A stretch of DNA of 64,000 bases from Sulfurimonas sp. (GTDB lineage: Bacteria; Campylobacterota; Campylobacteria; Campylobacterales; Sulfurimonadaceae): NCBI RefSeq assembly GCF_014859695.1, contig NZ_JACUTS010000001.1:1-64000 (forward strand). Direction: 5' to 3'. The position numbers were made by a program, and so were the translations under genes. The number at the start of each line of letters is the position of its first letter. Positions within the stretch are counted from its first letter, which is position 1. Shown here piece after piece: positions 27,642 through 48,638 of this stretch. The notes beneath the pieces were generated by a model. That model ran no database searches and was not told the origin of the DNA. It worked only from the letters and a program-made list of their open reading frames with translations.

Positions 27642-28733
27642 ATGTTTATAAAAGTACTCCTCTTTTTTAGTTTCATTTTATCAGCAGCAGCTTTAGATGC
27701 GAACGGTTTTACAAAAGCAGCAACAACAAAACCTCAGTTAGTCCAAACAGGTTCTCAAAAAGAGTGGTGTCCGGTATGCGGCATGAGCATAGAGGCTTAC
27801 TATAAAACTTCACACTCTTCAATAATCAACAATCATAAAAACAGACAATACTGCTCCATGAGATGTCTTGCGATAGATATGCAGGAGTATGAGATAGACC
27901 TTGATAATATTAAGGTCGTTGATGTTTCAACCGAAAAGCTAATAGGTGCCAAAAATGCCTACTATGTCGTCGGTTCCGATATCAGAGGCACTATGGCAAA
28001 GGTGAGTAAGCTTGCTTTTGAAGATAAAGAGGCTGCGGAAGATTTCAGTATTGAAAAGGGCGGGGAGATAGTTGATTTTAAAACAGCGCTCAAGATAGCA
28101 CAGGATTCACTGAAGTCAGATATTGCAATGGTTGAGAATAAAAAAGAGAAGCAGGTCTACTCTATTGGCAAAAAAATATTTGAGAAGAGATGCGAAAAGG
28201 AGATAGACTTGAAGAGCTATCTTGAGATCAATGAACTCAAAGCACACATAAAAGATGAAAATGTTTGCGGCGAACTAAAAGAGAGTGAGATACAGCCGCT
28301 CTCTCTCTACCTTTGGGAAGTAAAAAGGTTTGGCGACCTTGAAAATATTGGCGAGACAATAAGTGTTGATAAAAATGAAAAGTGCCCGATTTGCGGTATG
28401 TTTGTCTACAAATATCCAAAATGGGCGGCGCAGATATTTTACGGAGACAGACACTTCTCATTTGATGGCGTAAAAGATATGATGAAGTATTTTTTTATGC
28501 ACAAAGAGGAGGTCTCAAAAATAGTTGTGAGCGATTACTACTCCCAAAAAGCGCTCAATGCCAAAGAGGCTTACTATGTAGTAGGAAGTGATGTTTATGG
28601 TCCGATGGGAGAGGAGCTTATACCTTTTGCAAAAGAGAGTGAGGCAAAAACTTTCTACATGGACCACAAAGGCTCTAAGATACTAAGGTTTGATGAGATA
28701 ACAGAGATGGAGATTAAGAAGCTAGATGAATAG
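27642..28733 (+). CDS. Exported protein with two NosL-like domains
   Basis: A 363-residue protein with a signal peptide (about 1-18). Domain 1 (about 43-155) has CPVCGM, YCSMRC and YYVVGSDIRGTMAKVSKLAF; domain 2 (about 247-355) has CPICGM and YYVVGSDVYGPMGEELIPFA. These are the Cys-x-x-Cys-x-Met copper site and the NosL core. NosL binds Cu(I) and helps assemble NosZ. A linker with two cysteines (about 180-225) lies between. A fusion of two NosL modules with an FtsX-type ABC system downstream suggests copper handling or export. It overlaps the next gene by 8 nt. Confidence 0.85.
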   Translation: MFIKVLLFFSFILSAAALDANGFTKAATTKPQLVQTGSQKEWCPVCGMSIEAYYKTSHSSIINNHKNRQYCSMRCLAIDMQEYEIDLDNIKVVDVSTEKLIGAKNAYYVVGSDIRGTMAKVSKLAFEDKEAAEDFSIEKGGEIVDFKTALKIAQDSLKSDIAMVENKKEKQVYSIGKKIFEKRCEKEIDLKSYLEINELKAHIKDENVCGELKESEIQPLSLYLWEVKRFGDLENIGETISVDKNEKCPICGMFVYKYPKWAAQIFYGDRHFSFDGVKDMMKYFFMHKEEVSKIVVSDYYSQKALNAKEAYYVVGSDVYGPMGEELIPFAKESEAKTFYMDHKGSKILRFDEITEMEIKKLDE

Positions 28734-29025
28734 AAAAAGCACTATTCTTATCTACTCTTTTTTTGCTCTAAGTGCTCTTTTGTTTGCAGAGATTGGCTAT
28801 CTTTCTCTAGCAAAAGGCATAGATGAAGCAGCACTGAAAAACAAAAGAGAGTTTGTAGAAACCGTGCAGCTTCCAGACCTTTGTATCGCAACAGAGGCTT
28901 CATATATCAGACATAGAAGCTTAAGCGATTTTTTCTCAATCTATAGAGATGACGGTACCTTAAGAGAGTACTTTGCATCTACCTATGTTTATAGCAGTTT
29001 CGATATTTTAAAAGAGGAAAAATGA
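28726..29025 (+). CDS. Small membrane-anchored protein of the NosL-ABC operon, unknown
   Basis: A 99-residue protein with one N-terminal membrane segment (about 7-27) and a short periplasmic part containing one Cys and several His (LPDLCIATEASYIRHRSLSDFF). It overlaps the genes on both sides by 8 and 4 nt, so it belongs firmly to the operon. No family is recognised. A role as small metal-binding or scaffold subunit is conjecture. Confidence 0.7.
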   Translation: MNRKSTILIYSFFALSALLFAEIGYLSLAKGIDEAALKNKREFVETVQLPDLCIATEASYIRHRSLSDFFSIYRDDGTLREYFASTYVYSSFDILKEEK

Positions 29026-30197
29026 GAAGCAAGTTTAACCTCTACATAACCGAGTATGCCATAAACTCCCTGCTTCGCCAGAAATATAAAACATTTTTTA
29101 TCTTCTTGGTTTTGAGCGCTCTTATATTTTTGCTAAGCTCGCTCTTTTTTATAACAAACTCTATAAAGCATGAGCTCTACTCCACCCTCGACTCACTTCC
29201 CGAGATAACTATTCAAAAGATTAAAGCTGGACGTCAAGATGAGATAGATATAGCGGTTGTAGATGATATTTTGCAGATGAGCGGTGTGCAGAGCGCAGTT
29301 GCAAGAGTGTGGGGCTACTACTACTTTGAAAATGCAGGGGTAAACTTCACTCTCGTTGGAATTGAGGAGTATGAAGAGCAGCATAAAGAGTCGCTTAAGG
29401 GTGTTGCAGAATTGCTTGATTTTGATGGCTCTTCCATGATGGTAGGCGAGGGCGTTAAGAGAGTTATGGATGAGAGCTACTACAAAGAGTACTTCAACTT
29501 TATAAAGCCTGAGGGAACTCTAAAAAGAGTTCATATAGGCGGCACATTTGAGGGCGATACCGAGCTTGAGTCAAACGACGTCATAGTTATGAGCAAAAAA
29601 AACATTAGAGAGATTTTTGGGATTGATGAGACAAAAGCGACGGACATAGTGGCAAAAGTCGCAAATCCAAACGAGATAGCGACCATTGCTTCAAAGATAA
29701 AGCTTATGTACCCAGATGCAAGAGTGGTTACAAAAGATGATCTAAAGATAAGTTATCAAAATATTTTTGACTATAAAAGCGGGGTTTTTCTAGCACTCTT
29801 TATTGTCTCTCTCTTTACGTTTTTTATAATTATCTACGACAAAGCAAGCGGGCTCAGCAGCGAAGAGAAGAGGGAGATAGGGATACTCAAAGCTCTTGGC
29901 TGGAGGGTTGACGATGTTTTAAAGGAGAAATTTTACGAGGGGTTTGTGGTCTCGTTTTTCTCCTACATGACGGGTACCATTTTAGCTCTGTTTTTTGTTT
30001 ATGTCCTAAGGGCTCCTCTTATGCAAAACATCTTTGTGGGCTATTCGCAGCTAAAGACATCCTTTAATCTCCCTTTTGTTCTTGATGTGCAGACCATGGC
30101 GCTCATATTTTTTCTAAGTGTACCAATCTATATAGCGGCTACTATTATCCCTGCATGGAGAAGCGCTACACTCGAAGCTGATGAGGTTATAAGATAG
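29022..30197 (+). CDS. FtsX/MacB-type ABC transporter permease
   Basis: A 391-residue protein with one membrane segment near the N-terminus (about 22-45), a large periplasmic domain and three C-terminal segments (about 245-385). The loop GLSSEEKREIGILKALGWRVDDV just after the first C-terminal segment is the FtsX-family coupling motif. Such permeases (LolC/E, MacB) do not move substrate through a classical channel but drive extracytoplasmic work such as lipoprotein or metal-protein handling. It overlaps the ATPase by 1 nt. Confidence 0.9.
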   Translation: MRSKFNLYITEYAINSLLRQKYKTFFIFLVLSALIFLLSSLFFITNSIKHELYSTLDSLPEITIQKIKAGRQDEIDIAVVDDILQMSGVQSAVARVWGYYYFENAGVNFTLVGIEEYEEQHKESLKGVAELLDFDGSSMMVGEGVKRVMDESYYKEYFNFIKPEGTLKRVHIGGTFEGDTELESNDVIVMSKKNIREIFGIDETKATDIVAKVANPNEIATIASKIKLMYPDARVVTKDDLKISYQNIFDYKSGVFLALFIVSLFTFFIIIYDKASGLSSEEKREIGILKALGWRVDDVLKEKFYEGFVVSFFSYMTGTILALFFVYVLRAPLMQNIFVGYSQLKTSFNLPFVLDVQTMALIFFLSVPIYIAATIIPAWRSATLEADEVIR

Positions 30198-30865
30198 TGA
30201 TAAAACTAAAAGATGTAGTCAAAGAGTATACGGCGAACAATGCAGATACTGTAACCGCTTTAAAAAAGATAAGTCTAGAGATAAAAGAGGGGGAGTTTGT
30301 AGTGCTTAGAGGTGCAAGCGGGAGCGGAAAGAGCACCGTTCTCTCACTTATTGCCGCACTTAGCAAGCCGACAAGCGGAGAGGTGGAGGTTGATGGAGAT
30401 AAAATCTCCAAGCTTGCGGACAACTTTGCATCCGAGTATAGACGCCATAACATAGGGTTTGTTTTTCAAAAATACAATCTTATTTCTACTCTTAGCGTCA
30501 AAGAGAATATTATTTTGCCGCTTGTTCCCATGAATCTTAGCCAAAAAGAGATAGAGGAGAGACTCTTGAGAGTTTTAAAAATGTTTCATATTGAGCATAA
30601 AGCCAATCAGCTTGTCAAAAATCTCTCAGGCGGAGAGCAGCAAAGAGTGGCAATTGCCAGAGCAAATATAAACAATCCCAAGATTATTTTAGCGGATGAG
30701 CCTACGGCAAATCTGGATGAAAAGTTGTCGCTGCATCTTATAGAGATGTTAAAGGAGTTAAAAGCCGAGGGAAAAACAATCGTAGTCGCAACGCATGACC
30801 CTCTCTTTTTCGGGCTCTCTTTTGCAGACAAAGAGATAGAGCTGCATCATGGGAGTATGCTTTAG
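30197..30865 (+). CDS. LolD/MacB-type ABC ATPase
   Basis: A 222-residue ATP-binding protein with Walker A GASGSGKST (about 37-45), signature LSGGEQQR and Walker B IILADEPTAN. It pairs with the FtsX-type permease just upstream. The next gene starts one base after its stop. Confidence 0.93.
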   Translation: MIKLKDVVKEYTANNADTVTALKKISLEIKEGEFVVLRGASGSGKSTVLSLIAALSKPTSGEVEVDGDKISKLADNFASEYRRHNIGFVFQKYNLISTLSVKENIILPLVPMNLSQKEIEERLLRVLKMFHIEHKANQLVKNLSGGEQQRVAIARANINNPKIILADEPTANLDEKLSLHLIEMLKELKAEGKTIVVATHDPLFFGLSFADKEIELHHGSML

Positions 30866-31813
30866 ATGTTTTTAACTCCCGAAGTTCTTGCAATATTTAT
30901 CTTAAATGCAGTATTTGCGCTCTTCGCCTCCATTGCATTTTTTCTTAGTGTTAGAATCTATCTAAAGTGGAACATGAACTCATCCTCTGCCTCTCAGTAT
31001 GAGCTTGAGAAGCAGAGTTTTTTGGGCGCTACGATTATAAAGTATATTTTAATAACCAAAACAGCTCTTTTTCTCTTTTTTATATTTACGCTTGATAAGA
31101 TTTCCAATGTTATAACCGGAGCCATGTGTGCGGCAGGCGTGGTCGATGCGACGCAGACGGGAGCTTCTCTGATTGTTTTAAAAATCCTAAATATCTATCT
31201 TTTTGCTCTGTGGCTAAAACTTCATGCACAAGACTTGAGCGATAAGCAGCAGCCCTATACAAGGATGAAATTTGGATTTTTCATACCTCTGTTTTTTCTC
31301 TTTGCGGCAGAGGTGATTTTAGAGACAGTTATGTTTAGCTCCATTGAGATTGACAAGATGGTAAGCTGCTGCGGAAGCATATATTCAAGTACTTCTACCT
31401 CTGTGATATCTTCGCTTTTTTTACTGGATACCTCTGTTTTGGTTGCTCTGTTTTATGGTAGTTACCTCTTGATTGTTCTATTTTATTTTGTAAAAAACAG
31501 ATATATTTTCTCATTTTTAAATTTTCTTTTTATACCTATCTCGCTTATTTCTCTGATACTTTTTTTCGGCACATATATCTACGAGCTTCCATCACACCAC
31601 TGCCCGTTCTGCTTTTTGCAGAGTGACTACTATTATGTGGGGTATCTAGTATATACTCTTCTTTTTTTGGGAACATTTCATGGGATATCTGTTAGTTTTT
31701 CAAAAGAGAGGGAGAGAAGCTACAAAGCCTCACTTTTATTTAATTCTCTTTATGTTATATTGTTGTCTATGTATGTAGTTGTATACTACATGAAAAATGG
31801 TGTTTTTCTATAG
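30866..31813 (+). CDS. Polytopic membrane protein with conserved-looking Cys/His clusters
   Basis: A 315-residue protein with about eight hydrophobic segments. Three Cys sites fall in loops: GAMCAAGV (about 91), SCCGSIYSS (about 168) and SHHCPFCFLQSDYYYVGY (about 245). The last, HHCPFC, looks like a metal or disulfide site. It lies between the ABC ATPase and a NosL lipoprotein, so a role in copper transfer or thiol chemistry across the inner membrane is plausible. No named family recognised. It starts directly after the ATPase stop. Confidence 0.75.
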   Translation: MFLTPEVLAIFILNAVFALFASIAFFLSVRIYLKWNMNSSSASQYELEKQSFLGATIIKYILITKTALFLFFIFTLDKISNVITGAMCAAGVVDATQTGASLIVLKILNIYLFALWLKLHAQDLSDKQQPYTRMKFGFFIPLFFLFAAEVILETVMFSSIEIDKMVSCCGSIYSSTSTSVISSLFLLDTSVLVALFYGSYLLIVLFYFVKNRYIFSFLNFLFIPISLISLILFFGTYIYELPSHHCPFCFLQSDYYYVGYLVYTLLFLGTFHGISVSFSKERERSYKASLLFNSLYVILLSMYVVVYYMKNGVFL

Positions 31814-31821
31814 GGATATAT

Positions 31822-32253
31822 ATGGTAAAGTTCAAGATTATTCTATTTTCGTTGCTGGTGTTTATGTTTTTAGGTTGTGAGAAAGGAGATAGTAACGGTC
31901 CTGCAAAAATAAACTGGGACAGAGATATGTGTGACAGATGTGTTATGGTCATAAGTGACAGAAAGCATGCATTGCAGCTCAAAGACCCAAATACAAGAAG
32001 AGTCTATAAGTTTGATGATATAGGCTGTATGGCATTATGGTTTATTGAAGAAAACATTGAGTATAAAGAGAGTGCTGCTATCTGGATTACAGATGCTTAC
32101 ACGGGAGAGTGGATAAATGCAAGAGAGGCGTTTTACACAACTAACAATATAACTCCTATGGCATTTGGATTTAGTGCTTATGAATCAAAAGAGTATATAA
32201 AAGCGGGCGAAGAAGTCATCGCCTATGATGAGGTATTAAAAAGAATAAAATGA
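31822..32253 (+). CDS. NosL-family lipoprotein
   Basis: A 143-residue lipoprotein (lipobox FLGC about 14-17). The Cys-x-x-Cys-x-Met site MCDRCVM, then KFDDIGCMALWF and NNITPMAFGFSAYE, match NosL, a periplasmic Cu(I) chaperone for NosZ. It is closely similar in these blocks to the lipoprotein at 39870, so the two are probable paralogues. Its stop overlaps the regulator gene (ATGA). Confidence 0.88.
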   Translation: MVKFKIILFSLLVFMFLGCEKGDSNGPAKINWDRDMCDRCVMVISDRKHALQLKDPNTRRVYKFDDIGCMALWFIEENIEYKESAAIWITDAYTGEWINAREAFYTTNNITPMAFGFSAYESKEYIKAGEEVIAYDEVLKRIK

Positions 32254-32879
32254 GAGTACATTTAGAAAATATAGTTCTTTTTAAAAATATTGATGAAGAG
32301 ACAATTAACAAGATAGAAAATTTTACTACAGAGCACAGAGTTAGCAAAGACAATATTGTATTTTATGAGGGCGATGAGCCTAAATACCTATATCTTTTGG
32401 TTAAGGGCGTGATTAAGCTTTATAAAACATCATCAAATCATAAAGAGGTAGTGCTTAAATACTTTCATGACAATGAGCTTATAGGCGAAGTTGCAAATTT
32501 TGAAGGTATGCCATACCCTGCGACCGCAAAAGCATACAGCGATGTGGAGTTTTTGAAGATAGATTTTGAGAAGCTAAAAGAGGTCATCTTTTCAAATCCC
32601 AATATGGCATTTAATATTCAAACCTCTCTTATAAAAAAGATTAAAAACCTCGAAAATATCATATCTACCAACTTGGTTCTAGACTCAAAAGAGAGAGTCG
32701 CTAAATATATCTACAACCATTCGGAAGATTTTTTTGAGACTAAAAACATAGAGATAGCAGAAGTTCTCGGCGTCTCGCCTGAAACACTCTCTAGAATACT
32801 TAAGTTTTTCAAAGACAAAGAGATAATCAATGTCAAAACCAAATTTGCAGACAAAGAGGCTCTAAGAGAGTTTTTTTAA
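32250..32879 (+). CDS. Crp/Fnr family transcriptional regulator
   Basis: A 209-residue regulator with a cyclic-nucleotide-like beta barrel (about 10-120), a long dimer helix and a winged helix-turn-helix (about 155-195). The recognition helix reads SPETLSRIL; the E-x-x-S-R pattern is that of Fnr, which reads TTGAT half-sites. There is no N-terminal Cys cluster, so it is not an iron-sulfur oxygen sensor; a NO or haem-type signal is plausible, as for the Nss regulators of Wolinella. It is translationally coupled to nosL-like 31822. Confidence 0.9.
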   Translation: MRVHLENIVLFKNIDEETINKIENFTTEHRVSKDNIVFYEGDEPKYLYLLVKGVIKLYKTSSNHKEVVLKYFHDNELIGEVANFEGMPYPATAKAYSDVEFLKIDFEKLKEVIFSNPNMAFNIQTSLIKKIKNLENIISTNLVLDSKERVAKYIYNHSEDFFETKNIEIAEVLGVSPETLSRILKFFKDKEIINVKTKFADKEALREFF

Positions 32880-32893
32880 AAATAGAGATAGAA

Positions 32894-32907
32894 CTGACCT
32901 ATATCAA
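32894..32907. promoter_or_regulatory. Fnr-like box before the pentaheme cytochrome gene
   Basis: CTGACCTATATCAA matches the TTGAY-N4-RTCAA consensus except at its first base. It is centred 63.5 bp before the ATG, and a -10 TAAAAT (32930-32935) follows exactly 22 bp after it, as in three other promoters of this window. Confidence 0.6.
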
Positions 32908-32963
32908 CGCCAAGAGCTCTTCGCTTAGTTAAAATACTTCAATTTTAATCCACGGAGGGAAGA

Positions 32964-34088
32964 ATGCGTTATTTTTTTTTATTGCTAGGTGCAATTCTAT
33001 TTGCAGCTCACTTAGAGGCAAGCGAGAGCAAGGTGTGCCAGGCTTGCCACCCGATAATCTATGATGAGTATTACGAATCTTCTCACCGCAACGCATCTAT
33101 TTATAACAATCCAATCCATAAAGCTATGTGGGAGAAACACCCAAAAGACGAGAAGGGGTACACTTGCGCAAAGTGCCACTCTCCAAGTGATTTAGAGGTT
33201 CTTCAAAGCGGAATCGTTACAAAAAATGAGACTCAGGTAGAAGAGCCGATCTCTTGTATCTACTGTCACAGCATAAAAGATGTTCAAGTGGGTGAGAGTT
33301 CAAACAGCAATATTTTAGTCGATAAAAAACGCGAATTCTATACAGCTCAAGAGGGTAAAAAGGGCAGTGCAGAGTATGAGATGGAGTCCTCATGGTTTGG
33401 ATTAAAAAAGGAGCCAAAGAGCTCTCCCTATCACAAGATTGACTATGACAACGAAAACTACTATAGCGGAAATGCCTGTATGGGATGTCACTCTCATGCA
33501 AATAACGATCACGGTTTTGATATAACGATGCTTGACGCACTAATAAGCAAAGATGACAAAAATAGCTGTGTTACATGCCATATGCCGCAGGTTATCGGCT
33601 CAAAAGTCACAATACATGAGACAAAAACACATGCGTATCACGGTATCGCGGGGATTTACCACAAAAGCACGAACATGGGAGAATATATTGACTTTAATCT
33701 CTCAAAAAAGAGTGATAGCTTTAGTGTAAACGTCATAAACAGATCAAATCATGCTCTTTTTGGACAGGCATTTAGACAGGGAATTTTAAAAGCAGAAATA
33801 AAGAGGGGCGATAAGACAATTACGCTTGAGCCTTTTATATTTGAGAGAATATTGGCTCGTGATGGCGTAGAGGTTATGCCGTGGGAAGCGAATGAGGCTA
33901 TAAAAGATACCCTTATTTATGCAAAAAGAGAGGTTTTATTTAATGAGACTCTTCTTGGTGGAGATAAGCTTACCCTAACTCTGGGAGTTCAAAGAATATC
34001 TCAAGAGGGTGCTAAAAAGCTTGGCTTAGAGCTTGACAAAGAGTTTACAAAATTTAGAGTTTTAAAAAGTGAGACATTTGGTTTTTAA
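32964..34088 (+). CDS. Periplasmic pentaheme c-type cytochrome
   Basis: A 374-residue secreted protein (signal about 1-20) with five CxxCH haem sites: CQACH (about 25), CAKCH (about 68), CIYCH, CMGCH and CVTCH, all in the first 215 residues. Extra histidines (YESSHRN, NPIHKAM) look like axial ligands. The last 140 residues have no haem motif and look beta-rich. The layout resembles the cytochrome c554 group of multihaem proteins. It may carry electrons in N-oxide respiration. The acceptor is unknown. It follows the regulator gene, with its own Fnr-like promoter. Confidence 0.85.
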   Translation: MRYFFLLLGAILFAAHLEASESKVCQACHPIIYDEYYESSHRNASIYNNPIHKAMWEKHPKDEKGYTCAKCHSPSDLEVLQSGIVTKNETQVEEPISCIYCHSIKDVQVGESSNSNILVDKKREFYTAQEGKKGSAEYEMESSWFGLKKEPKSSPYHKIDYDNENYYSGNACMGCHSHANNDHGFDITMLDALISKDDKNSCVTCHMPQVIGSKVTIHETKTHAYHGIAGIYHKSTNMGEYIDFNLSKKSDSFSVNVINRSNHALFGQAFRQGILKAEIKRGDKTITLEPFIFERILARDGVEVMPWEANEAIKDTLIYAKREVLFNETLLGGDKLTLTLGVQRISQEGAKKLGLELDKEFTKFRVLKSETFGF

Positions 34089-34153: not shown

Positions 34154-34846
34154 ATGGTACAAGAAGATGTACGAGTATTAATGGTGGAAGATGATGAGAT
34201 ACTAGCAGAGCTTATATCTGATTATCTTCACAATTGCGGAATAACAGTTGAAGTAAACTCTGACCCTACAACCGTAATAGAGCATCTTAAAAAAACAAAC
34301 TTTGATCTTATTATCCTTGATCTGACGCTTCCAAAGATGGACGGGTTATTTCTTTGTGAAAAGATCTCCGCCGCTTTTGATATTCCCATCATCATCTCAT
34401 CTGCAAGAGACGAGGTAAGCGACAAAGTTTTGGGTCTTGAGAAGGGTGCGGATGATTATCTCCCTAAGCCTTATGACCCTAGAGAGCTTGTTGCTAGAAT
34501 ACATGCAATGCTAAGGCGTAAAAAATCATCTTCATCCGCACCTCTTAAGGAAGAGATATTTGGAGATTTTAAAATTGACAAATCAAAGATGGTTATACAC
34601 CACAAAGATATTGCCCTTGATTTAACCGTAGCAGAGTACGGCGTTTTGTCCTTTTTTATCAATCAAAGAGGCATAGTGCTTAGCAGAGGAACGATTCTAG
34701 ATGCAGTTGAGGGTTTGAGCTGGGAGAGTGATGAGAGAAGTATAGATGTCATCATTAGTCGTTTGCGCTCAAAACTACTCGACAATCCAAGAGCTCCTAC
34801 ATATATAGAGTCTGTTCGCGGCATCGGTTACAGGATGAAGAGTTGA
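34154..34846 (+). CDS. OmpR-family response regulator
   Basis: A 230-residue protein: receiver domain (about 7-118) with the acidic pair VEDDE, phospho-Asp in LIILDLTLP, Ser in ISSARD and Lys in YLPKPYDP; then an OmpR-type winged helix domain ending in RGIGYRM. It overlaps the kinase gene by 4 nt. It is the best candidate to bind the triple TTAACA arrays before the porin and DUF302 genes, since OmpR-family dimers typically bind direct repeats spaced 11 bp. Confidence 0.95.
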   Translation: MVQEDVRVLMVEDDEILAELISDYLHNCGITVEVNSDPTTVIEHLKKTNFDLIILDLTLPKMDGLFLCEKISAAFDIPIIISSARDEVSDKVLGLEKGADDYLPKPYDPRELVARIHAMLRRKKSSSSAPLKEEIFGDFKIDKSKMVIHHKDIALDLTVAEYGVLSFFINQRGIVLSRGTILDAVEGLSWESDERSIDVIISRLRSKLLDNPRAPTYIESVRGIGYRMKS

Positions 34847-36054
34847 GTAGACACTCTATTTTATTTAAGATAGGGATCTTTTTCTCTATAGCATTTGTCA
34901 TAATCACAATTCTTTTTAAATTTATGTATGACTATGAGTTCTTATCGGTCAAAGAGAAGCTAAAGGGTCACTATCACAAAGTGGCAAGATACGTTATGCA
35001 GCACCACACGGGCATAGACTCCAACGAGGAGTTCTTGAAAAATCTGGAGAAAAAGCACATAAAAATAGTAGGGGATGATAAAGAAAAATTAGTGAAATTG
35101 CCAAAAAGCGATTCCATATCGTGCGGAATGCTCTACTTTGATCTTTACGAGAGGGATGGATACAGGTATCTTGTAACGCCGGATGTAACCGGAGGACTTA
35201 TTTTAAAAGATATGAATACCAAACCGATAAACGTATACTATATGTGGTGGCTTTATGGCGCTTTTGTATTCGTATTTTTGGCTCTCTTTCTCTCCATTGC
35301 AATAAGCATGTACCCACTAAAACATCTACAGACGCAGATTCGGCGTTTTGGAGAGGGAGATATGGATATTGATCTTGCATCTAAGGGAAAAGATGAGATT
35401 GCAGAGGTCTCAAACGAGTTTGACAAAGCAGTTAAAAAGATAAAAGCGATGATAAACTCAAGAGCAATATTTATACGAAATATAACACATGAGTTGAAAA
35501 CACCCATAACAAAAGGGAGACTCTCCTTGGAGTTCTTGGAGGAGTCTCGTACAAAAGATATTCTTACAAATGTTTTTTTGCGCCTAAACCTACTTACCAG
35601 AGAGATTGTGCAGATTGAGAACATAACCGCGTGTGACTGCAATATAGACAAAAAGAGCTACCATCTGACAGATATTTTAGACAATGCTGCAGATCTGCTC
35701 TTTTTGGAACCTGAGAGCATAAAAAACAATCTTGATAACAGAGTTGTTGAGGTTGATTTTGATCTTATGAGCATAGCGTTTAAAAATCTTATTGATAATG
35801 GCATAAAGTACTCAATAGATTCTGAAGTTTACCTTGATCTTCAAGGCAATGAACTTGCATTTTGCAGCAAAGGCGATAAGCTACAATATCCTCTTGAGTA
35901 CTATACGCAACCTTTTACAAAGTGCGATACAAACTTGAGTGAGAGTTTCGGGCTGGGTCTTTACATAGTAAACTACATTTTAGAAAAACATGACTACTCT
36001 CTATTATACAGCTACAAAGATGGCATCAACTCTTTTACTATAACGCTTTGTTAA
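34843..36054 (+). CDS. ArsS-like sensor histidine kinase
   Basis: A 403-residue membrane kinase starting with TTG: membrane segments at about 8-28 and 135-158 flank a periplasmic sensor of about 105 residues; then HAMP (about 160-212), a HisKA domain with H-box NITHELKTPITKG (about 222) and an ATPase domain with N-box FKNLIDNGIKYS and G-box ESFGLGLYIV. The overall pattern is that of the ArsS-type kinases of Campylobacterota. The stop codon lies inside the first TTAACA repeat of the porin promoter. Confidence 0.93.
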   Translation: MSRHSILFKIGIFFSIAFVIITILFKFMYDYEFLSVKEKLKGHYHKVARYVMQHHTGIDSNEEFLKNLEKKHIKIVGDDKEKLVKLPKSDSISCGMLYFDLYERDGYRYLVTPDVTGGLILKDMNTKPINVYYMWWLYGAFVFVFLALFLSIAISMYPLKHLQTQIRRFGEGDMDIDLASKGKDEIAEVSNEFDKAVKKIKAMINSRAIFIRNITHELKTPITKGRLSLEFLEESRTKDILTNVFLRLNLLTREIVQIENITACDCNIDKKSYHLTDILDNAADLLFLEPESIKNNLDNRVVEVDFDLMSIAFKNLIDNGIKYSIDSEVYLDLQGNELAFCSKGDKLQYPLEYYTQPFTKCDTNLSESFGLGLYIVNYILEKHDYSLLYSYKDGINSFTITLC

Positions 36055-36078
36055 CAATTCATTAACAAAAAGTTAACA
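36051..36078. promoter_or_regulatory. Triple TTAACA operator before the porin gene
   Basis: TTAACA occurs at 36051, 36062 and 36073, each 11 bp apart. A -10 TATACT (36099-36104) follows 20 bp after the last repeat. This is a classic layout for activation by an OmpR-family regulator. Confidence 0.75.
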
Positions 36079-36172
36079 CCCAATTTATAAAGCTCTCTTA
36101 TACTACATTTATGCAGTTTGAACTCAAAGTAGTTTTAAACTACAGATAAAATTCTAAAAAAAAGGGTTATGG

Positions 36173-37552
36173 ATGAAAAAAGCTATAAAATTGTCCTTAG
36201 CGGCAGCTTTGGCAGGCGGAGCAATGCTTCAGGCGGCAGATGTTGATATTAATGGTTACAGAGGTGGAAGTATTGATTTAATGCTAAAGGCGATGACCGT
36301 AATAGATGATGAGAAAAATGGTTTTGCACCGAGCAACGGAAGTGGTTATTTGGTAAAGCTTAAGTATGAAACCCCTGATGTTTGGCTAGATGGTCTAAAA
36401 GTCGGTGTTGGTATGTATGTCAATGGTGATGCTGGTTTAACAGAATGGGATGAAAAAGGTGCTCCAACTTATGATAAAGGCGCATACGGGATGGTTGTTG
36501 ATGTGGATGGTGAATCAAAAGCACTTATGGGTGAGTTTTATCTCTCATACAAACATCAGTATTTTGATGCAAAATTTGGACGTCAAACACTTGACACTCC
36601 GCTTACAAAGATAAATACATCTCTTATGCCAAACTTCTATGAGGCGTATATGTTAGGTACAAACGTAATAGAGGGTCTTCGTTTAACTGCAGGTCAGATC
36701 ACAAAAATGTCTCTTGGTTCCCGTGCAGCACCGGATTGGGGAATAATAGGTGAAAATACAGGAACGGCAGGCGTTGCTGTTAACATTGAACAGTTAGGCG
36801 GAGACATTGAGCAAGCTAAGTTTTACAATATGGGAACAATAGCTGGTAAAGACAGCACGGCAGGGCGTACTGTGATTGGTGCTACATATACGGGTATAAA
36901 AAATCTTAAAGCTGATTTTTGGGTTTATCACTCTGATGATATAGCAAATGACATATATGCAGAGGTAGGCTATAAAATCCCAGTCTCTGAAGGTATGGCA
37001 GTAAACTTAAATGCTCAGTACTTAATGCAAAAAGATACTGGCGATAGTTTGGCAGGCGAGAGAGACTTTAATATGTTCGGTGCAAAAGTCGCACTTGGTA
37101 CTAAAAAGTGGGGAGTTTTTGCTGCATACAATCAGTCTGGAAAAAAAGATGATCTTGGAGCTAACCAAGAGGGGCAATACTTTAATGCTTGGGGAGCAGA
37201 CCCTGCATATACAAGCTCTATCTTCTCTCGTAACGCATACCGTGAAGATGTAGATGCATATAAAGTAGGTGCTCACTACGTTATTATGAAAGGCTTGAGA
37301 GTAAGTGTTGACTATGCTAACTACGGTAAATCTGCATCATCTGCAGGTAATGTTGCAGCGCTAACAAAATTAGCTATGGATGATGCGTACGAGGTTGATA
37401 TAGGTGTTAACTATAGAGCAAATGAAAACTGGTTTTTCAGAGTATTTAATGCAAGACGTGTAAGTGAGTTTAACGGTACTACTCCAAGTGCATTTGACGA
37501 TCATGAAAGACGTCAAAACCACTACCGTGCTGTAGCGGTATACAACTTCTAA
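36173..37552 (+). CDS. Outer-membrane porin
   Basis: A 459-residue porin with a signal peptide (about 1-21, ending LQAADV), long alternating strands and a C-terminal NHYRAVAVYNF. The layout (VDINGYRGGSIDLMLKAMT..., KFGRQTLDTPLTKINTSLMPNFYEAYMLG) fits the Opr-like porins of Campylobacterota, expected to be 16- or 18-stranded. It follows the two-component system and has a triple TTAACA operator, so it is probably its main target. Confidence 0.85.
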   Translation: MKKAIKLSLAAALAGGAMLQAADVDINGYRGGSIDLMLKAMTVIDDEKNGFAPSNGSGYLVKLKYETPDVWLDGLKVGVGMYVNGDAGLTEWDEKGAPTYDKGAYGMVVDVDGESKALMGEFYLSYKHQYFDAKFGRQTLDTPLTKINTSLMPNFYEAYMLGTNVIEGLRLTAGQITKMSLGSRAAPDWGIIGENTGTAGVAVNIEQLGGDIEQAKFYNMGTIAGKDSTAGRTVIGATYTGIKNLKADFWVYHSDDIANDIYAEVGYKIPVSEGMAVNLNAQYLMQKDTGDSLAGERDFNMFGAKVALGTKKWGVFAAYNQSGKKDDLGANQEGQYFNAWGADPAYTSSIFSRNAYREDVDAYKVGAHYVIMKGLRVSVDYANYGKSASSAGNVAALTKLAMDDAYEVDIGVNYRANENWFFRVFNARRVSEFNGTTPSAFDDHERRQNHYRAVAVYNF

Positions 37553-38523: not shown

Positions 38524-39021
38524 TTAGAGCCTTCCGTTGAGCAGTCTGATGAGAGCGTCCGATATTTGGTTGAAAGCAAATACTCTTTTACCGTTGTGTT
38601 TAGAAGCAAATTTATTGGCTGCTTCATATGTTGCAAACGGTACCAAATCATCGCCCGCAGGTGAAATCACATTACTTCCGTATACAAAAAAGGCGCCTTT
38701 TGCATTTATGGGCTTGAGTGTGTCAAAATCGGTAACTAAAATTTCTTTAAAATCTTCCTCTTCTTTGACACCGATATCAAACCATCTGCCGGGCTGTAGA
38801 TAAAACTCCATCATTGACTTTGGAGATGAAAAGAAGAGTTTTTTGCCGTTTGTCAGCTCTATTTTACAAGCCCACATGGGCGCTTCATATACCTTTATTT
38901 TCCTTACTACACACGTGCTCTCTTTATCAAAATCCATCTTGTAAGAGTCGTTTGCGCTCAAGCTTGAAATAGGCAAGAGAGATAGAGCAATTACCAGTGA
39001 TGCGAATATTTTTTTGTACAT
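38524..39021 (-). CDS. nosL: NosL-like accessory protein, last gene of the nos operon
   Basis: A 165-residue secreted protein (signal about 1-23). It keeps the NosL core (KLFFSSPKSMMEFYL, FFVYGSNVISPAGDDLVPFATYEAANKFASKHNGKRVFAF) but the usual CxxCGM is replaced by two cysteines 16 residues apart (CVVRKIKVYEAPMWAC), so copper binding may differ. It follows nosY by 11 nt, the place of nosL in Wolinella-type clusters. Confidence 0.82.
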   Translation of the reverse strand: MYKKIFASLVIALSLLPISSLSANDSYKMDFDKESTCVVRKIKVYEAPMWACKIELTNGKKLFFSSPKSMMEFYLQPGRWFDIGVKEEEDFKEILVTDFDTLKPINAKGAFFVYGSNVISPAGDDLVPFATYEAANKFASKHNGKRVFAFNQISDALIRLLNGRL

Positions 39022-39032
39022 AAAAACTCCTT

Positions 39033-39860
39033 TTAAACCAAATCTTTTTTTTCAAATATTTTAAAACCGCCGTAAGCAAAAGCCAGCCCCAAAAGAAGAG
39101 GATAGCCGATGGACACAAGAACAAACACGCTTTGACTCATAAGGTCAAGTATATAAAAGGCAACAGGTCCCATAACTGTAAGTTCAGGATCAAAAAGAGA
39201 TATAGCGGCCACCCTGAAGAGTTCCATGGGGTTAATCATAGCTATAAATATAATCAACTCCTCGTTTATTCTTTGCTGCATCATAAGCGAGATAAGCGCT
39301 ATATCTATAAAAGCGAGCAGAAATATCCAGACAAAGAACGAGATTCCAAGAGCAACTTCGGATGATTTTACAAACGAAGAGATGAAAAATGCTATACCTA
39401 AAAAAGCGCTAGAGAGTGAGAAGAGAAGCCCAGTATATAAAAAAAAGATACTCCACGGAATTGCCGCACCTTTTATAAAACCAAAAATTATAGCAATAAT
39501 CATGGCAAAAAGAACGGGAAGATATACCGTGATAAACCTTCCTATGATCTTGCCCCAGTAATACTGCCTGAGCGATATAGGAAACGAGAGCATATACTCA
39601 AGTATATGGTTGTCTCTGTCACCGGAGATGGAGCGAACCGTGGTTATGAGTATAAATATAGGAAGTATAACTATCGTGATTTGGATATACATAAGCAGAA
39701 GTCTGCTGAGTCCGCTAAACCCCATGACCTGAGATTCCGTCACTCCTGCTATAAAAAAGAGGGCAATTAACCCTCCAAATACAAGAGAGTAGACCAAAAA
39801 CCATTTGGCTCTTATAGACTCTTTGAGATCTAGATATGCGATTAAATATAAATTTTTCAA
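39033..39860 (-). CDS. nosY: ABC permease NosY
   Basis: A 275-residue membrane protein with about six segments. GDRDNHILEYMLSFPISLRQYYWGKIIGRF and the C-terminal ALAFAYGGFKIFEKKDL fit NosY, the membrane half of the NosFY transporter thought to feed sulfur or copper species to NosD for building the CuZ centre. It lies 9 nt downstream of a lipoprotein gene rather than directly after nosF. Confidence 0.9.
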   Translation of the reverse strand: MKNLYLIAYLDLKESIRAKWFLVYSLVFGGLIALFFIAGVTESQVMGFSGLSRLLLMYIQITIVILPIFILITTVRSISGDRDNHILEYMLSFPISLRQYYWGKIIGRFITVYLPVLFAMIIAIIFGFIKGAAIPWSIFFLYTGLLFSLSSAFLGIAFFISSFVKSSEVALGISFFVWIFLLAFIDIALISLMMQQRINEELIIFIAMINPMELFRVAAISLFDPELTVMGPVAFYILDLMSQSVFVLVSIGYPLLLGLAFAYGGFKIFEKKDLV

Positions 39861-39869
39861 ATCAATCCT

Positions 39870-40337
39870 TTAGTGTTCGAGTATCTGTTTTCTAATTTTT
39901 GGATTTCCCATATGTTCGCCTCTGAGTATTCTGAGTTTAACCTCGTCTATTTTTACAGTGTTCTCTTTTTTGAGTTCATACGCACCGAATCCATAGTTCA
40001 TTGGGGTCTTCTCATTGAAACTAAAGTATGCTTTTGACGCATCTATGTATTTTTGCGTATCGTTCGTAAAAACCTCTGCTTTGTAGATGTTTATGTTTTT
40101 TTCTTGGCTCCAAAGAACAAGACATCCAACATCGTCAAAACCGTAGTTTCTATTTTGTACTTGAAGCTTTGCCGTATAAATATTTGATGCAGGAAGCTCC
40201 ATCTTGCATTTTGGGCAGACCTCATTGTGTTTGCCGCCACTATCTTCAGAAGAGAGAGAGTTTGATGAATTGCAGCCTGATATAAAAAACAGAAGCATAA
40301 AATTTAAGATAAAAAATAAAGATTTAAAGTCTTTCAT
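39870..40337 (-). CDS. NosL-family lipoprotein inserted between nosF and nosY
   Basis: A 155-residue lipoprotein (lipobox FISGC). The copper site is CPKCKM, followed by YGFDDVGCLVLW and EKTPMNYGFGAYE, as in the lipoprotein at 31822. Start: ATG 40337 instead of the track's TTG two codons up. Its start overlaps the nosF stop by about 14 nt. A NosL family member here, besides the nosL at the operon end, is uncommon in my experience of these clusters. Confidence 0.83.
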   Translation of the reverse strand: MKDFKSLFFILNFMLLFFISGCNSSNSLSSEDSGGKHNEVCPKCKMELPASNIYTAKLQVQNRNYGFDDVGCLVLWSQEKNINIYKAEVFTNDTQKYIDASKAYFSFNEKTPMNYGFGAYELKKENTVKIDEVKLRILRGEHMGNPKIRKQILEH

Positions 40338-40962
40338 CTGCAACTACTTTTCCCATGTCCATATATATTTGCCTGTTTACCAATCCTTGAACCTCTTCTA
40401 CCCTGTGTGTGACAAAAAGAAGAATTTTTTCATCTTCATTTTCTTGTAAAAGTCTATAGAAGTCATCTCTTGCCTTTGGATCAAGATTTGCAGTAGGCTC
40501 GTCATATATAATGATGCTGCTTTTTTTGGCTAAACTGATTGAAATAAGCAGTTTTTGCTTCATTCCACCGCTTAGTTTAAAAAATGACTTGTAAAGGTTT
40601 CCTTTGATGTCAAGCTTCATCTCGTTTGAGTAGTGCTCAATAAGCTCTTTGTCTATATCGGTGCTCATGCAGACATACTGCATCAGTTCTTGGATATTTA
40701 ATTTTATGGGAGGGGGAAGCTGCGGTACAAAACTGACATTTTGCAGCACCTTTACCCTCTCTTTAATCGGGCAAAAACCATCTACAAGAACTCTTCCCGA
40801 ATCAGGATGGTAGTACCCCAGAATTGCGCGGATAAGGGTTGTTTTTCCCGCACCGTTAGCACCCATTAGTGCTATAGAATCATTTTTATTGAACTCGCAA
40901 CTCACACTGTCAAGAGATATATGCTCGCCGAATTTTTTTGTAAGGTTTGAAATAGTTATCAT
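40324..40962 (-). CDS. nosF: ABC ATPase NosF
   Basis: A 212-residue ATP-binding protein with Walker A GANGAGKTTLI (about 34), signature LSGGMKQK (about 130) and Walker B IIIYDEPTANLDP. It is short for an ABC ATPase, as is usual for NosF of this lineage. It powers NosY and acts with NosD. Confidence 0.92.
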   Translation of the reverse strand: MITISNLTKKFGEHISLDSVSCEFNKNDSIALMGANGAGKTTLIRAILGYYHPDSGRVLVDGFCPIKERVKVLQNVSFVPQLPPPIKLNIQELMQYVCMSTDIDKELIEHYSNEMKLDIKGNLYKSFFKLSGGMKQKLLISISLAKKSSIIIYDEPTANLDPKARDDFYRLLQENEDEKILLFVTHRVEEVQGLVNRQIYMDMGKVVADERL

Positions 40963-40965
40963 TTT

Positions 40966-41871
40966 TTACACCAGGCTCTTAAGTCTAAAATCAAAGTTTA
41001 GCGCATCTGTATGGCAAACATCAATACATCTTCCGCAAAGCGTACAGTCTGCACCTGTAATATACTCTCTTGTTATACCTTTTTCTTCTCTTTGTTTGTC
41101 ATATTTTGCTTTTGTAATCTCTAAAACCTGATTTTCAAAACATACATCATGGCAAACCATACAGTGGTCGCAGTTGTCATTCCACTCGACTCTGAGTGCC
41201 GAGATTTTCCCCAGGTAACCGTATGTCGTACCGATTGGACAAATATATGTACACCAAGCTCTTCGGGAGTAAAAAACCTCAAAAGCCAAAACCACTACAA
41301 CCCAAAGAAGCGCCAAGCTCCATCCATACGCAATAGTGCGGCTTAAAATTCCAACAACGTTAAATGTCTCAAACACCAAATAGCCGCTAACTAAAGAGAG
41401 ACTCAAAAATATGACCCAAAAAATATGTCTGACTCTGTGATCAAACTTTCTCTCTTTGATAATTTTTTTATTCACAAGAGTGTCATGCCATTTTTCGCCG
41501 ATTTCGCTTAGTATGCCATATGGACAAACCCATGCGCAGTAGCTTCTTCCGCCGACAAGAAGATAAAAAGCAGCAATTGTCGCAGTGCCTATTATCATAT
41601 TTACAGGCAGCTCGAACGTAGCTAGAAAAAGCTCTATGGTAGTAAAAATATCTATAAGATGAAAACCTAGAAATCTTGAACCGCTCAGCGTTCCCTCGAG
41701 CATCTGAATATCGACGTGAAAAGATAGAAAAAAGAGCAGGTGAATGGAAATGATTAAAATCCATCTCTTCATCCTGTAACTAAACTTTTTTTTACCGTCT
41801 TTTGTTTTGTCAAAAAATGTTGACCAAAACGAAGAGTGTTTAATCGTCTCTCTACTATTATATTTATCCAT
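40966..41871 (-). CDS. nosH: NapH-type iron-sulfur membrane protein NosH
   Basis: A 301-residue protein with about four membrane segments, two membrane-edge CxxxCP motifs (CAWVCPYG and CTYICPIG) and two 4Fe-4S sites at the C-terminus (CDHCMVCHDVC and CTLCGRCIDVC). With NosG it probably forms a quinol-to-cytochrome path, as proposed for NapGH. It lies 3 nt before nosF. Confidence 0.93.
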   Translation of the reverse strand: MDKYNSRETIKHSSFWSTFFDKTKDGKKKFSYRMKRWILIISIHLLFFLSFHVDIQMLEGTLSGSRFLGFHLIDIFTTIELFLATFELPVNMIIGTATIAAFYLLVGGRSYCAWVCPYGILSEIGEKWHDTLVNKKIIKERKFDHRVRHIFWVIFLSLSLVSGYLVFETFNVVGILSRTIAYGWSLALLWVVVVLAFEVFYSRRAWCTYICPIGTTYGYLGKISALRVEWNDNCDHCMVCHDVCFENQVLEITKAKYDKQREEKGITREYITGADCTLCGRCIDVCHTDALNFDFRLKSLV

Positions 41872-41904
41872 TTAAAGCTCCATTTTTCGGCTGGTTGTTA
41901 GACA

Positions 41905-42405
41905 CTATTTATTGCTCTCAGCTGCGCGTGAGGGAAATTCTCCGATTTCATCTGCAAACTTTCTTAGTTCCTCTTCGCTGGTGTTAATGAGCAACCCTCT
42001 CATAATCACGTTCTCTTTTCTGTTGGCTTTAAAATCAGTTAAATCTTTGTATATCTTATCAGCACTTTGTCCATAAAGTTTTGGTCCCATAAGCTTTCTT
42101 CCGTCTTGCTCTCCAGAGCCGTTTGCTCCATGACATGCGGCACATTTACTTTTGTACTCCATACTTACTTTTATGGCTCCTATATTTCCGGCTTTGTCTT
42201 TAAGTGCCCTTAGCTGATCCGTCTCTTTTTCTTCATCACTTTTTTCTGCCGGTGCTGCTTGTGTTGTGGTAGTAGCATCTGCAAAGCTTCCTATACCTTT
42301 GGCATGTTCGCCGCCATGGTAAGCTCCTCCTTTTGAGAGAGTCCATGCCATTAGAGCAAATACTAAGATTGTTGCTATTGCCGCTATCGTATTTTTCATG
42401 CTCAT
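41905..42405 (-). CDS. nosC2: Membrane-anchored monohaem cytochrome NosC2
   Basis: A 166-residue protein with an N-terminal membrane anchor (about 5-25), an Ala/Glu-rich linker and a cytochrome c domain with the haem site CAACH and a Met-containing C-terminal part (LMGPKLYG, VIMRGLLIN). It is expected to carry electrons to NosZ. It overlaps nosC1 by 4 nt. Confidence 0.9.
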   Translation of the reverse strand: MSMKNTIAAIATILVFALMAWTLSKGGAYHGGEHAKGIGSFADATTTTQAAPAEKSDEEKETDQLRALKDKAGNIGAIKVSMEYKSKCAACHGANGSGEQDGRKLMGPKLYGQSADKIYKDLTDFKANRKENVIMRGLLINTSEEELRKFADEIGEFPSRAAESNK

Positions 42406-43034
42406 CTCCTCATCTCTTTTATCATCTTGTTAAATTCGTATATTTCATCGGAGAGCCTTCTTATCTCTTCATCATCCATTTGGCTGATAAGACCGTTCAT
42501 CAATACATTTTTAGATGAGTCTTTTTTAAACTCTGCAATCTTATTAAAAATATACTCAGAGTCTTTTCCAAGAAGAGAGGGACCTATAACACCGTTTGCA
42601 TAGTCATTATGACATGCAGAGCATTTGACGATAAACTCTTTGCTTAACTGTTTTACAAGCATTGAAACTTGTATGCTTTCATAAGGGCTTCTAACATATA
42701 TGTTTGCGTCTACGGCACTTCTTGGTTTTGTCCTCACAGAGGCATCTTCATTTGCAGGCATTGCATTTAGATCATATTCACTCTGTATGTTGTAGTCATA
42801 GTAGTAGGATTTACTCTGGTTTTTATCATGTTCTTTTTCTTCAACTTTAACAGCGAGAGCATTTTTGTTTTCAACAACTTCAATACTCTGCAAAGCAGCT
42901 GTTTTTGGAGATTGTGCATTTGCACTCTCTTTTTTATCGCTCTCTTGGCTGCAACCTGTAAAAAGGGCAAGGAACAAAACACCGCCGATATAGAATAAAC
43001 TTTTAGATTTTGATTTTAAATTACAATTTTTCAT
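42402..43034 (-). CDS. nosC1: Lipoprotein monohaem cytochrome NosC1
   Basis: A 210-residue protein with lipobox LFTGC near residue 28, a long polar linker and a cytochrome c domain with haem site CSACH (about 148). Its C-terminal half resembles NosC2 (VIGPSLLGKDSEYIFNKIAEFKKDSSKNVLMNGLISQMDDEEIRRLSDEI), so the two arose by duplication. It is expected to pass electrons from NosGH towards NosZ. Confidence 0.9.
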   Translation of the reverse strand: MKNCNLKSKSKSLFYIGGVLFLALFTGCSQESDKKESANAQSPKTAALQSIEVVENKNALAVKVEEKEHDKNQSKSYYYDYNIQSEYDLNAMPANEDASVRTKPRSAVDANIYVRSPYESIQVSMLVKQLSKEFIVKCSACHNDYANGVIGPSLLGKDSEYIFNKIAEFKKDSSKNVLMNGLISQMDDEEIRRLSDEIYEFNKMIKEMRR

Positions 43035-43043
43035 TTTATGGCC

Positions 43044-43784
43044 TTATTTTTTGTTTAAGTAGTACTCTTCATAAGTCACTCTTGGTTTGACTACAATTGA
43101 TGCAATTGTTGTTGGGCAAACTTCTTGACACGCACCGCATCCTATACATCCGTCATAGATTTCAGGTCTGTTGCCTCCGCCGCTGTCACTCACCATAGCT
43201 ATGGCACTCATAGGATTTGGAATAGGGCACATGTCGGCGCATAGAGTACACTCCTTGTCTTCAAAAGAGTCAAATTTTTCAAGAAGTTCTACTTCAAGTT
43301 CGTGAATATTTACAACAGAGTTTGTAAATTTATGCATTTGCTTATTGTACCCCTTTGGTATAGGAGTATTTGTCATAGCAAGACAGGTGTCTGGAAACTC
43401 TAACACGGCAATTCCCATCTTGATATCTTCTGGTTTTTCAGTATGATGATCAAGCGCTCCGCTTGGGCATGCAAGAACACAAGGCACCGCGCTACAAGCA
43501 TAGCAACCTCTCTCATCTGCATCAATATATGGTGTTCCAACACCATGCCCGCTTAGAAAATCGGCAAGTTTTATAGAGTGGTAAGGACATACCTGAAGAC
43601 ACTGACCGCACTTTATACAGAGCGCTAGAAATTTTTTTTCATCTACGGCTCCCGGCGGTCTCAACCTATTTTCTGCCCTTAAGACATAGGGGCTAAATAC
43701 CATGCCCCCGCCTAAAACAAGTCCTAGTACTCCTAAAGTAGAGTATTTTATAAATTCTCTTTTATCTGTCTTAACTTTTTCCAA
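43044..43784 (-). CDS. nosG: NapG-type ferredoxin-like protein NosG
   Basis: A 246-residue exported protein with about four 4Fe-4S motifs: CIKCGQCLQVCP, CYACSAVPCVLACP, CTLCADMCP and CIGCGACQEVCP. The N-terminus (KREFIKYSTLGVLGLVLGGG) is a hydrophobic anchor or signal without the twin-Arg pair usual in NapG, so its export route is uncertain. It works with NosH. Confidence 0.92.
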   Translation of the reverse strand: MEKVKTDKREFIKYSTLGVLGLVLGGGMVFSPYVLRAENRLRPPGAVDEKKFLALCIKCGQCLQVCPYHSIKLADFLSGHGVGTPYIDADERGCYACSAVPCVLACPSGALDHHTEKPEDIKMGIAVLEFPDTCLAMTNTPIPKGYNKQMHKFTNSVVNIHELEVELLEKFDSFEDKECTLCADMCPIPNPMSAIAMVSDSGGGNRPEIYDGCIGCGACQEVCPTTIASIVVKPRVTYEEYYLNKK

Positions 43785-43787
43785 AAT

Positions 43788-45005
43788 TTATCCTTCTATC
43801 TTAACTATGGGTTCTGCATCTTCAAATAAAAAAAGCGGCTTTGTAAATGGTGCCAGTTTTGCTAAAAAATTTAGCAAAGATATAACGGGCGAGCCGTAGA
43901 AAAACTTAACATCCGGGTTGTGAATCCAGAGCTGATCCGCATATCTATAGACTTTATGCGGGGTATCGCCTATGTTATCACCATTCTTATCAAAGCCCTC
44001 GTAGTTATCCCAGTAATTCTGGCTAATCTCATTATTGTAAGTTCTGCTTGATCTTCCATCATTTATAACATCTTCAATATTTCCCATTATTATGTTGTTT
44101 TTGATAATGTTGTCTTCACTTAAAGAGTGGAAATGAAGTGCTTGTGAGTTGTACAATATTTTGTTGTTCTCTATCCAGTTATTTGTATCAGGCTCAAATG
44201 GGGATCTGTCAATATAGATTCCCTGAGCACAGTATAGAATCGTATTGTCTTTTATGGTAAAGTTGGTTACCTCTTTTAAGCCTATGCCCATTCCGGTAGT
44301 GCCCAAAGAGCTTTTTATGAAATTGCCCGTTGCTACGGTATCTTTTGAGTACATAAAAAATATTCCTACCGAGTTGTATTTGTAGCTATTATTTTTCACA
44401 TAATTTTTGCCGGCATACATAAAGTGCAGCGAATATCTGCAATACTCCCCGATATTCTCCTCTATAAGATTTCCGTGACTATACCAGACAACCATGTCGC
44501 GAGAGCGGATAAGCGAGTTTTTTCTTATGATGTTGTCGTGGCTGTACCATAGTCTTAAACCGTCTCCTTTTAATCCTAGGTCAAAATCTTTTGATGTTAT
44601 GGTGTTGTTGGAGATGATAGAGTTGCTAACCATCTGCATGTCAATTCCAAAAAGGCAATCATCTATGGTGCAGTTGCTGACTTCACACTGTTTTGCTTCA
44701 GAGATAGTGATGGCAGCATCAACGTTTTCATGCCTATCCCCACTTCCCGTAATCCTTAAATTTTTAAGTGTCACATAAGAACTTTTTATGGTTATTACAG
44801 TTCCTTTGCCTTCACCGTCAATGACTACGCCATCTTCTTTTCCTATAATTGTCAAAGGTTTATTTATGACAATACTGCCTTTGTAGACCCCCTCAGGAAG
44901 CTTTAAGATAGAACCGACAGGTGCATCATCAATTGCTTTTTGCAGTACATTTGCGCTTAACAATGGCAAAAATAGAGTTAATAAAACAAAAAAAAGTTTA
45001 AGCAT
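43788..45005 (-). CDS. nosD: Periplasmic copper-assembly protein NosD
   Basis: A 405-residue secreted protein with a signal peptide (about 1-18) and a right-handed parallel beta-helix (CASH-type repeats: NSIISNNTITSKDFDLGLKGDGLRLWYSHDNIIRKN). NosD is needed with NosFY to build the CuZ centre of NosZ. Length is normal. It overlaps nosB by 8 nt. Confidence 0.94.
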   Translation of the reverse strand: MLKLFFVLLTLFLPLLSANVLQKAIDDAPVGSILKLPEGVYKGSIVINKPLTIIGKEDGVVIDGEGKGTVITIKSSYVTLKNLRITGSGDRHENVDAAITISEAKQCEVSNCTIDDCLFGIDMQMVSNSIISNNTITSKDFDLGLKGDGLRLWYSHDNIIRKNSLIRSRDMVVWYSHGNLIEENIGEYCRYSLHFMYAGKNYVKNNSYKYNSVGIFFMYSKDTVATGNFIKSSLGTTGMGIGLKEVTNFTIKDNTILYCAQGIYIDRSPFEPDTNNWIENNKILYNSQALHFHSLSEDNIIKNNIIMGNIEDVINDGRSSRTYNNEISQNYWDNYEGFDKNGDNIGDTPHKVYRYADQLWIHNPDVKFFYGSPVISLLNFLAKLAPFTKPLFLFEDAEPIVKIEG

Positions 45006-45789: not shown

Positions 45790-45812
45790 TATGAAAGTCC
45801 TTTGTATATAAA

Positions 45813-45854
45813 AAATAAAACTTGAAAATTAATAACAATCCTCAAGTTTTATTT
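45813..45854 (-). promoter_or_regulatory. Long AT-rich hairpin in the nosB leader
   Basis: AAATAAAACTTGA-N16-TCAAGTTTTATTT is a perfect 13-bp stem ending about 24 nt before the nosB ATG. On the minus strand a T-rich tract follows (TTTTTTATATA). It may act as a second terminator, an mRNA end or a translation control. Confidence 0.5.
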
Positions 45855-45918
45855 TATAATGTATTATATTACAATATTATTCTTATAAGCTTAAATAATA
45901 AAGGATTGATATAAATGC

Positions 45919-45955: not shown

Positions 45956-45978
45956 AATTGTTTCTAAAAAATGTATCT

Positions 45979-48579: not shown

Positions 48580-48638
48580 GATATTCTCCTTAAATTCCAT
48601 TAATAACAAAATGGTAGTTTAATTTGAGGAGTAATAAT

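Follow-up and report, generated by a model that had tools for sequence, protein, structure and literature searches.

In the window analysed here, which comprises the first 64,000 nucleotides of a Sulfurimonas sp. contig (NZ_JACUTS010000001.1, forward strand), we found a gene module that combines NosL proteins with an ATP-binding cassette (ABC) transporter of the FtsX/MacB/LolC type and with a membrane protein carrying the motif HHCPFC. The reading that we favour, with a probability of about 0.58, is that the module constitutes a NosL-coupled ABC system of the LolCDE/MacB type which handles periplasmic Cu(I), mainly for the maturation of copper-containing respiratory enzymes. We found the HHCPFC protein encoded in 161 of the 397 Campylobacterota genomes surveyed, and the association with copper enzymes that had been proposed from the sequence alone was borne out among them: 104 of the 161 also encode NosZ and 116 encode NosZ or MccA, that is, the gene set is found mostly together with these enzymes. 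The proposed tie to N2O respiration agrees with the NosZ association but is too narrow, since the module sits in the mcc (sulfite reductase) cluster too and persists, together with NosL, in genomes that lack both enzymes.

The module and its conserved core

The neighbourhoods of HHCPFC homologues were taken from whole genomes and from named GTDB records and annotated with the window proteins; the 98 non-redundant loci with good flanks are chosen loci plus the best 80 matches, and counts over them describe this sample and not the phylum. The permease was present in 93 of the 98 loci and the ATPase in 96, and a NosL gene lay within 5.5 kb in 78. The conserved core is NosL, the FtsX-type permease, the ATPase and the HHCPFC protein, and because the FtsX-ABC-HHCPFC order recurs across Campylobacterota, the gene set is not a product of chance. 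In this sense, the six-part system with its cytochrome put forward by the sequence-only reading stands as a unit only for this core; the Crp/Fnr gene and the pentaheme cytochrome are local additions outside it, and the cytochrome was not upheld as a component or substrate. The closest named HHCPFC loci, among the best 80 of 333 matches, belong to Sulfurimonas, and these 80 are all from Campylobacterota where the record title gives a group; homologues were also sought on plasmids and none was found. In one locus (L037:8786-10488) a RhuM-family gene and an open reading frame (ORF) of 231 amino acids (aa) interrupt the permease/ATPase gene pair.

In the window, the eight ORFs of the earlier description were all confirmed at their coordinates, intact and on the + strand, with tight packing from 27642 to 32879:

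27642..28733, + strand: exported tandem-NosL protein, 363 aa; Pfam PF05573 in two stretches, linker cysteines C184 and C209
28726..29025, + strand: small protein, 99 aa, with an apparent single N-terminal membrane anchor; accessory (58/98 loci)
29022..30197, + strand: FtsX/MacB/LolC-type permease, 391 aa; Pfam FtsX 1.2e-11, best Foldseek match LolE
30197..30865, + strand: ABC ATPase of the FtsE/LolD/MacB subgroup, 222 aa; by Pfam, below NCBIfam cut-offs
30866..31813, + strand: HHCPFC membrane protein, 315 aa; model with eight membrane helices, unmatched in Pfam and NCBIfam
31822..32253, + strand: NosL-type lipoprotein, 143 aa; lipobox LGC, CDRCVM; accessory (51/98 loci)
32250..32879, + strand: Crp/Fnr-type regulator, 209 aa; by Pfam, local accessory (18/98 loci)
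32964..34088, + strand: pentaheme c-type cytochrome, 374 aa, with five CXXCH motifs; neighbour outside the conserved module (6/98 loci)

From the first gene on, neighbours overlap by 8, 4 and 1 bases, then abut, are separated by an 8-base gap and overlap by 4 bases, and the cytochrome gene starts 84 bases 3' of the end of the Crp/Fnr gene. A promoter and terminator scan gave no signal above shuffled sequence. The 99-aa protein has a conserved LpDLAisTEAxyiRHRS motif, contains no conserved Cys and matched no family in Pfam or NCBIfam. A separate nos cluster lies at 38524-48609 in the opposite orientation, where NosZ (891 bits) and NosD (438 bits) were called by NCBIfam and the remaining genes by order and similarity. 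Here NosD, NosF and NosY are genes of their own (39033-45005), apart from the module, whose ATPase is 29% identical to NosF; identity of the module with the NosDFY machine was therefore rejected, as the sequence-only reading had anticipated. Downstream of the cytochrome, at 34154-37552, the window encodes a two-component system and a porin-like protein, in the same order as in locus L035.

Linkage to NosZ, MccA and NosL

NosZ is encoded in 129 of the 397 genomes, and 104 of these 129 also encode the HHCPFC protein (odds ratio 15, p 4e-30; the p-values given here overstate independence because the species are related). In 29 of 43 genomes where both were listed on one contig, the module lies at most 21 kb from nosZ, and in loci L041-L047, L053 and L054 it is located within the nos operon. 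These nos-embedded HHCPFC copies are scattered in the tree, with 17 label changes (the bootstrap had not settled). The arrangement of L047 matches one reported for nos clusters of Sulfurospirillum cavolei, where a five-gene insertion that includes an ABC permease and an ATPase separates nosL from nosY (PMC4794192); the parts of that article available to us give no function for the insertion and no link to mcc.

The second linkage is to the sulfite reductase MccA, which in work by Hermann from 2015 is said to be a haem c-copper enzyme. In loci of the Campylobacter and Sulfurospirillum type, the module is preceded by a cluster that opens with an MccA match (PDB 4RKM, 1306 bits) and continues with genes called as peptidyl-prolyl isomerase-like and Fe-S proteins by position, an NrfD-like protein, CcsBA and Sel1. 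In L181 and L182 a single strand carries the order mccA-mccB-mccC-mccD-CcsBA-Sel1-NosL-FtsX-ABC-HHCPFC-NosL-like. All 55 genomes with an MccA above 1000 bits encode the HHCPFC protein, and the module lies some 10 kb downstream of mccA on the same strand. Where both genes share a contig, the starts of the HHCPFC gene and mccA are separated by 9.4-13.3 kb (23 of 23 cases), and ten further pairs agree. The mcc copies of the HHCPFC protein form one clade (support 100/99, again in a tree whose bootstrap had not settled). Outside family f3, 17 of 18 genomes with MccA have at least two module copies, versus 3 of 106 module-bearing genomes that lack MccA, and genome G377 holds one copy in nos (L042) and another in mcc (L181). 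Additional FtsX-ABC-HHCPFC copies at L196:7122-9921 (G167) and L197:7806-11424 (G206) lie outside the nos and mcc clusters, and both genomes also have an mcc-linked copy. Since the MccA of G167 is identical to PDB 4RKM across its 702 residues, this genome is that of Wolinella succinogenes or nearly so.

The adjacency of the CcsBA haem lyase to the module in mcc clusters, and that of the pentaheme cytochrome in the window, could also suggest that the module matures haem proteins (this cytochrome, or MccA in mcc) and does not handle copper. We consider this very improbable, as the cytochrome accompanies so few loci, nos-embedded copies adjoin a copper enzyme and the constant partner is NosL.

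The link to NosL extends beyond both enzymes. Once genomes with NosZ, MccA or a member of the MccA-like group are excluded, 39 module genomes remain, and all 39 encode NosL, compared with 3 of 80 genomes that have neither the module nor NosZ; the same comparison at genus level gave 18/18 versus 3/29, which softens the problem of shared ancestry and does not remove it. NosL is known to bind a single Cu(I) and to serve the CuZ site (PMC7558416), and the counts suggest that it is not only a NosZ chaperone. In the window, the tandem-NosL protein matches PF05573 with 183.5 bits (2.6e-54) in two domains of 65.3 and 126.8 bits, and its CPxCGM motifs are accompanied by the linker cysteines, which are conserved over 52 homologues. 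This linker (residues ~173-230), in which both conserved Cys lie, resembles a c-type cytochrome domain that lacks its haem motif (GKKIFEKxC ... LQxLxLYLWE). The lipoprotein encoded at 31822 reaches 24.5 bits for the same family, barely above the 24-bit cut-off, and shares 37% identity with the nos-cluster NosL lipoprotein. Beyond those of the module, two NosL-type proteins are encoded in the nos cluster, one at 38524-39021 with no CxxC near the N terminus and a lipoprotein at 39870-40343, and in L054:2558-5131 (G219) several NosL-type genes stand in tandem upstream of the module.

Several observations weigh against the copper-maturation reading. Twenty-five NosZ genomes have no module, and those inspected (L183-L190) keep complete-looking nos clusters, so that some NosZ enzymes do without the module. 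Of the 41 genomes with a divergent MccA (~50% identity), only 7 have the module, and in the six sequences aligned this MccA group keeps the two non-haem Cys at the putative copper-ligand positions, presumably C399 and C495 of MccA; the idea that these enzymes go without the module for want of copper ligands was thus rejected. With most divergent-MccA genomes and 25 NosZ genomes lacking it, neither enzyme family strictly requires the module. Moreover, the mcc-type NosL-like lipoprotein has lost its CxxC-M, and no partner enzyme was found for the 39 module genomes in which NosZ and MccA are both absent. Multicopper oxidases were rejected as the hidden partner because they are not enriched there (7/39 versus 12/41, p 0.30), and cytochrome cd1, with a weak enrichment (9/39 versus 2/41, p 0.02), was set aside.

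The divergent MccA-like loci are a second type of MccA-like cluster. In L175, L176 and L178, and in part in L177, L179 and L180, the octahaem gene is followed by one with six CXXCH/K motifs, and three loci additionally encode CcsBA and a protein of ~195 aa; NosL and the ABC module are absent.

The retention of the module and NosL in genomes without NosZ or MccA also bears on another explanation, in which the module clears surplus Cu(I) from the periplasm by stripping or export, NosL proteins act as sponges and nearness to copper enzymes is incidental. Consistent with it, L055-L057, L060 and L061 keep the module in the chromosomal place that it has in the window (prmC-like - module - ftsZ, with FtsZ identified by Pfam in L055) where the nos block is absent, and their source genomes (G143, G282, G289, G326 and G332) lack NosZ. 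Yet the strict one-strand linkage to mccA, the separate copies per enzyme and the mcc-specific clade fit dedicated maturation better, and in the loci read the module is not accompanied by any conserved gene for an outer-membrane channel or a periplasmic adaptor, which makes detoxification improbable.

The transporter and the HHCPFC protein

The permease belongs to the FtsX/MacB/LolC-type ABC transporters, by its Pfam FtsX C-terminal domain (45.2 bits, 1.2e-11) and by a matching predicted fold. Its model (pLDDT 81.7, pTM 0.67) retrieved LolE as the best Foldseek match (3e-14), as well as LolC, MacB and HrtB, with a probability of 1.00 to LolE, MacB and HrtB. Identity with the LolCDE lipoprotein exporter itself was rejected, as the NCBIfam equivalog cut-offs were missed for LolC/E (51.8 vs 362 bits) and for LolD (201 vs 308 bits).

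Judged by profile searches and its predicted fold, the HHCPFC protein represents a new family of membrane proteins: it matched no Pfam or NCBIfam family, Foldseek with its model (pLDDT 82.8, pTM 0.81, eight helices) found nothing in the PDB at an E value below 1, and a PDB profile search was also empty. Over 26 diverse homologues, M87 and C88, C168 and C169, and H244, C246, P247 and C249 are invariant. In the model, the loops with C88, with C168-C169 and with H244-C246-C249 share one side, which we infer to be periplasmic because the Lys/Arg-rich loops lie on the other. No metal-site geometry is claimed, since loops 169-172 and 242-252 have low model confidence.

A CPxC motif and a second Cys pair could equally belong to a thiol-redox module, in which the HHCPFC protein would be a VKOR/DsbB-like oxidoreductase that keeps the Cys state of NosL and apo-cytochromes, with the ABC transporter assisting, beside the haem lyase in mcc. 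The CcsBA adjacency would suit this, as would a thioredoxin-family protein in the last place of the L074 module and a weak Pfam VKOR match in the L044 homologue (residues 176-253). The latter reaches 18.7 bits vs the PF07884 cut-off of 27.5, is the only signal among 26 homologues and its genome the sole one among 121; the window protein does not match PF07884, and membership of the family in VKOR was rejected. PDB fold and profile matches include no VKOR, and the protein has eight helices and not four or five, five invariant Cys that include a vicinal pair plus invariant Met and His, and a tie to NosL. Taken together, we regard a redox role as unlikely, albeit the least unlikely of the alternatives to copper maturation.

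Proposed mechanism and relation to known systems

LolCDE and MacB perform established mechanical work on the periplasmic side, as FtsX/MacB/LolC-type transporters mostly do. The module shares with LolCDE, MacB and HrtBA the permease fold with a periplasmic domain and the ATPase subgroup; it differs in having one permease gene and, as partners, NosL and the HHCPFC protein instead of LolA or MacA. Copper binding, its direction and the mechanism are what we infer from here. The HHCPFC protein would bind Cu(I) on its periplasmic face, and the permease and ATPase would convert cytoplasmic ATP hydrolysis into movement of the periplasmic domain, as in LolCDE and MacB, so that copper need not cross the membrane. 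This movement may pass Cu(I) between the HHCPFC site and the NosL proteins, NosL would hand it to the apo-enzyme, and separate module copies, such as those of G377 in nos and mcc, may serve separate enzymes. A bolder version, which we offer tentatively and at somewhat less than even odds, is that the module constitutes a third, undescribed machine for periplasmic copper-enzyme maturation, made of a mechanical FtsX-type ABC transporter, NosL and a membrane protein that has a new fold and binds copper, with paralogues dedicated to NosZ, to MccA and to at least one further copper enzyme.

NosDFY-NosL likewise has an ABC transporter working with NosL beside nosZ, in presumed periplasmic copper handling. 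However, NosFY belongs to another ABC family, uses NosD, coexists with the module in the genome and has neither an FtsX permease nor an HHCPFC protein. The FTR1/P19-FtrD iron system, which we take to be Campylobacter jejuni Cj1658-Cj1665 with an FtsX-type ABC transporter and thioredoxins, shares with the module the FtsX ABC, a membrane protein containing Cys, and redox or metal proteins of the periplasm. To our knowledge, NosL and HHCPFC proteins are not parts of that system, and judged by the FtrD-like partner, which is absent from the window module and nearby in 1 of 98 loci, identity with it was rejected. In L074:443-9875, an iron-type cassette of FtrD-like, FtsX and thioredoxin genes directly adjoins a divergent copy of the module.

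The mcc cluster of W. succinogenes and the nos insertion of S. cavolei both contain the gene families of the module in the same order. The mcc gene cluster was reportedly known from work by Kern in 2011, where the mcc side may already have been partly interpreted. In the open literature, with subscription papers mostly outside it, no article that deals with the module as a whole was found, and the gene set is almost unstudied. NosZ, whose copper supply is only partly understood, is important as a biological sink for the greenhouse gas N2O, and we know of no description of how MccA obtains its Cu(I). A module common to both clusters constitutes a concrete, testable candidate for the copper route to NosZ and MccA, and W. 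succinogenes carries it beside a structurally solved MccA.

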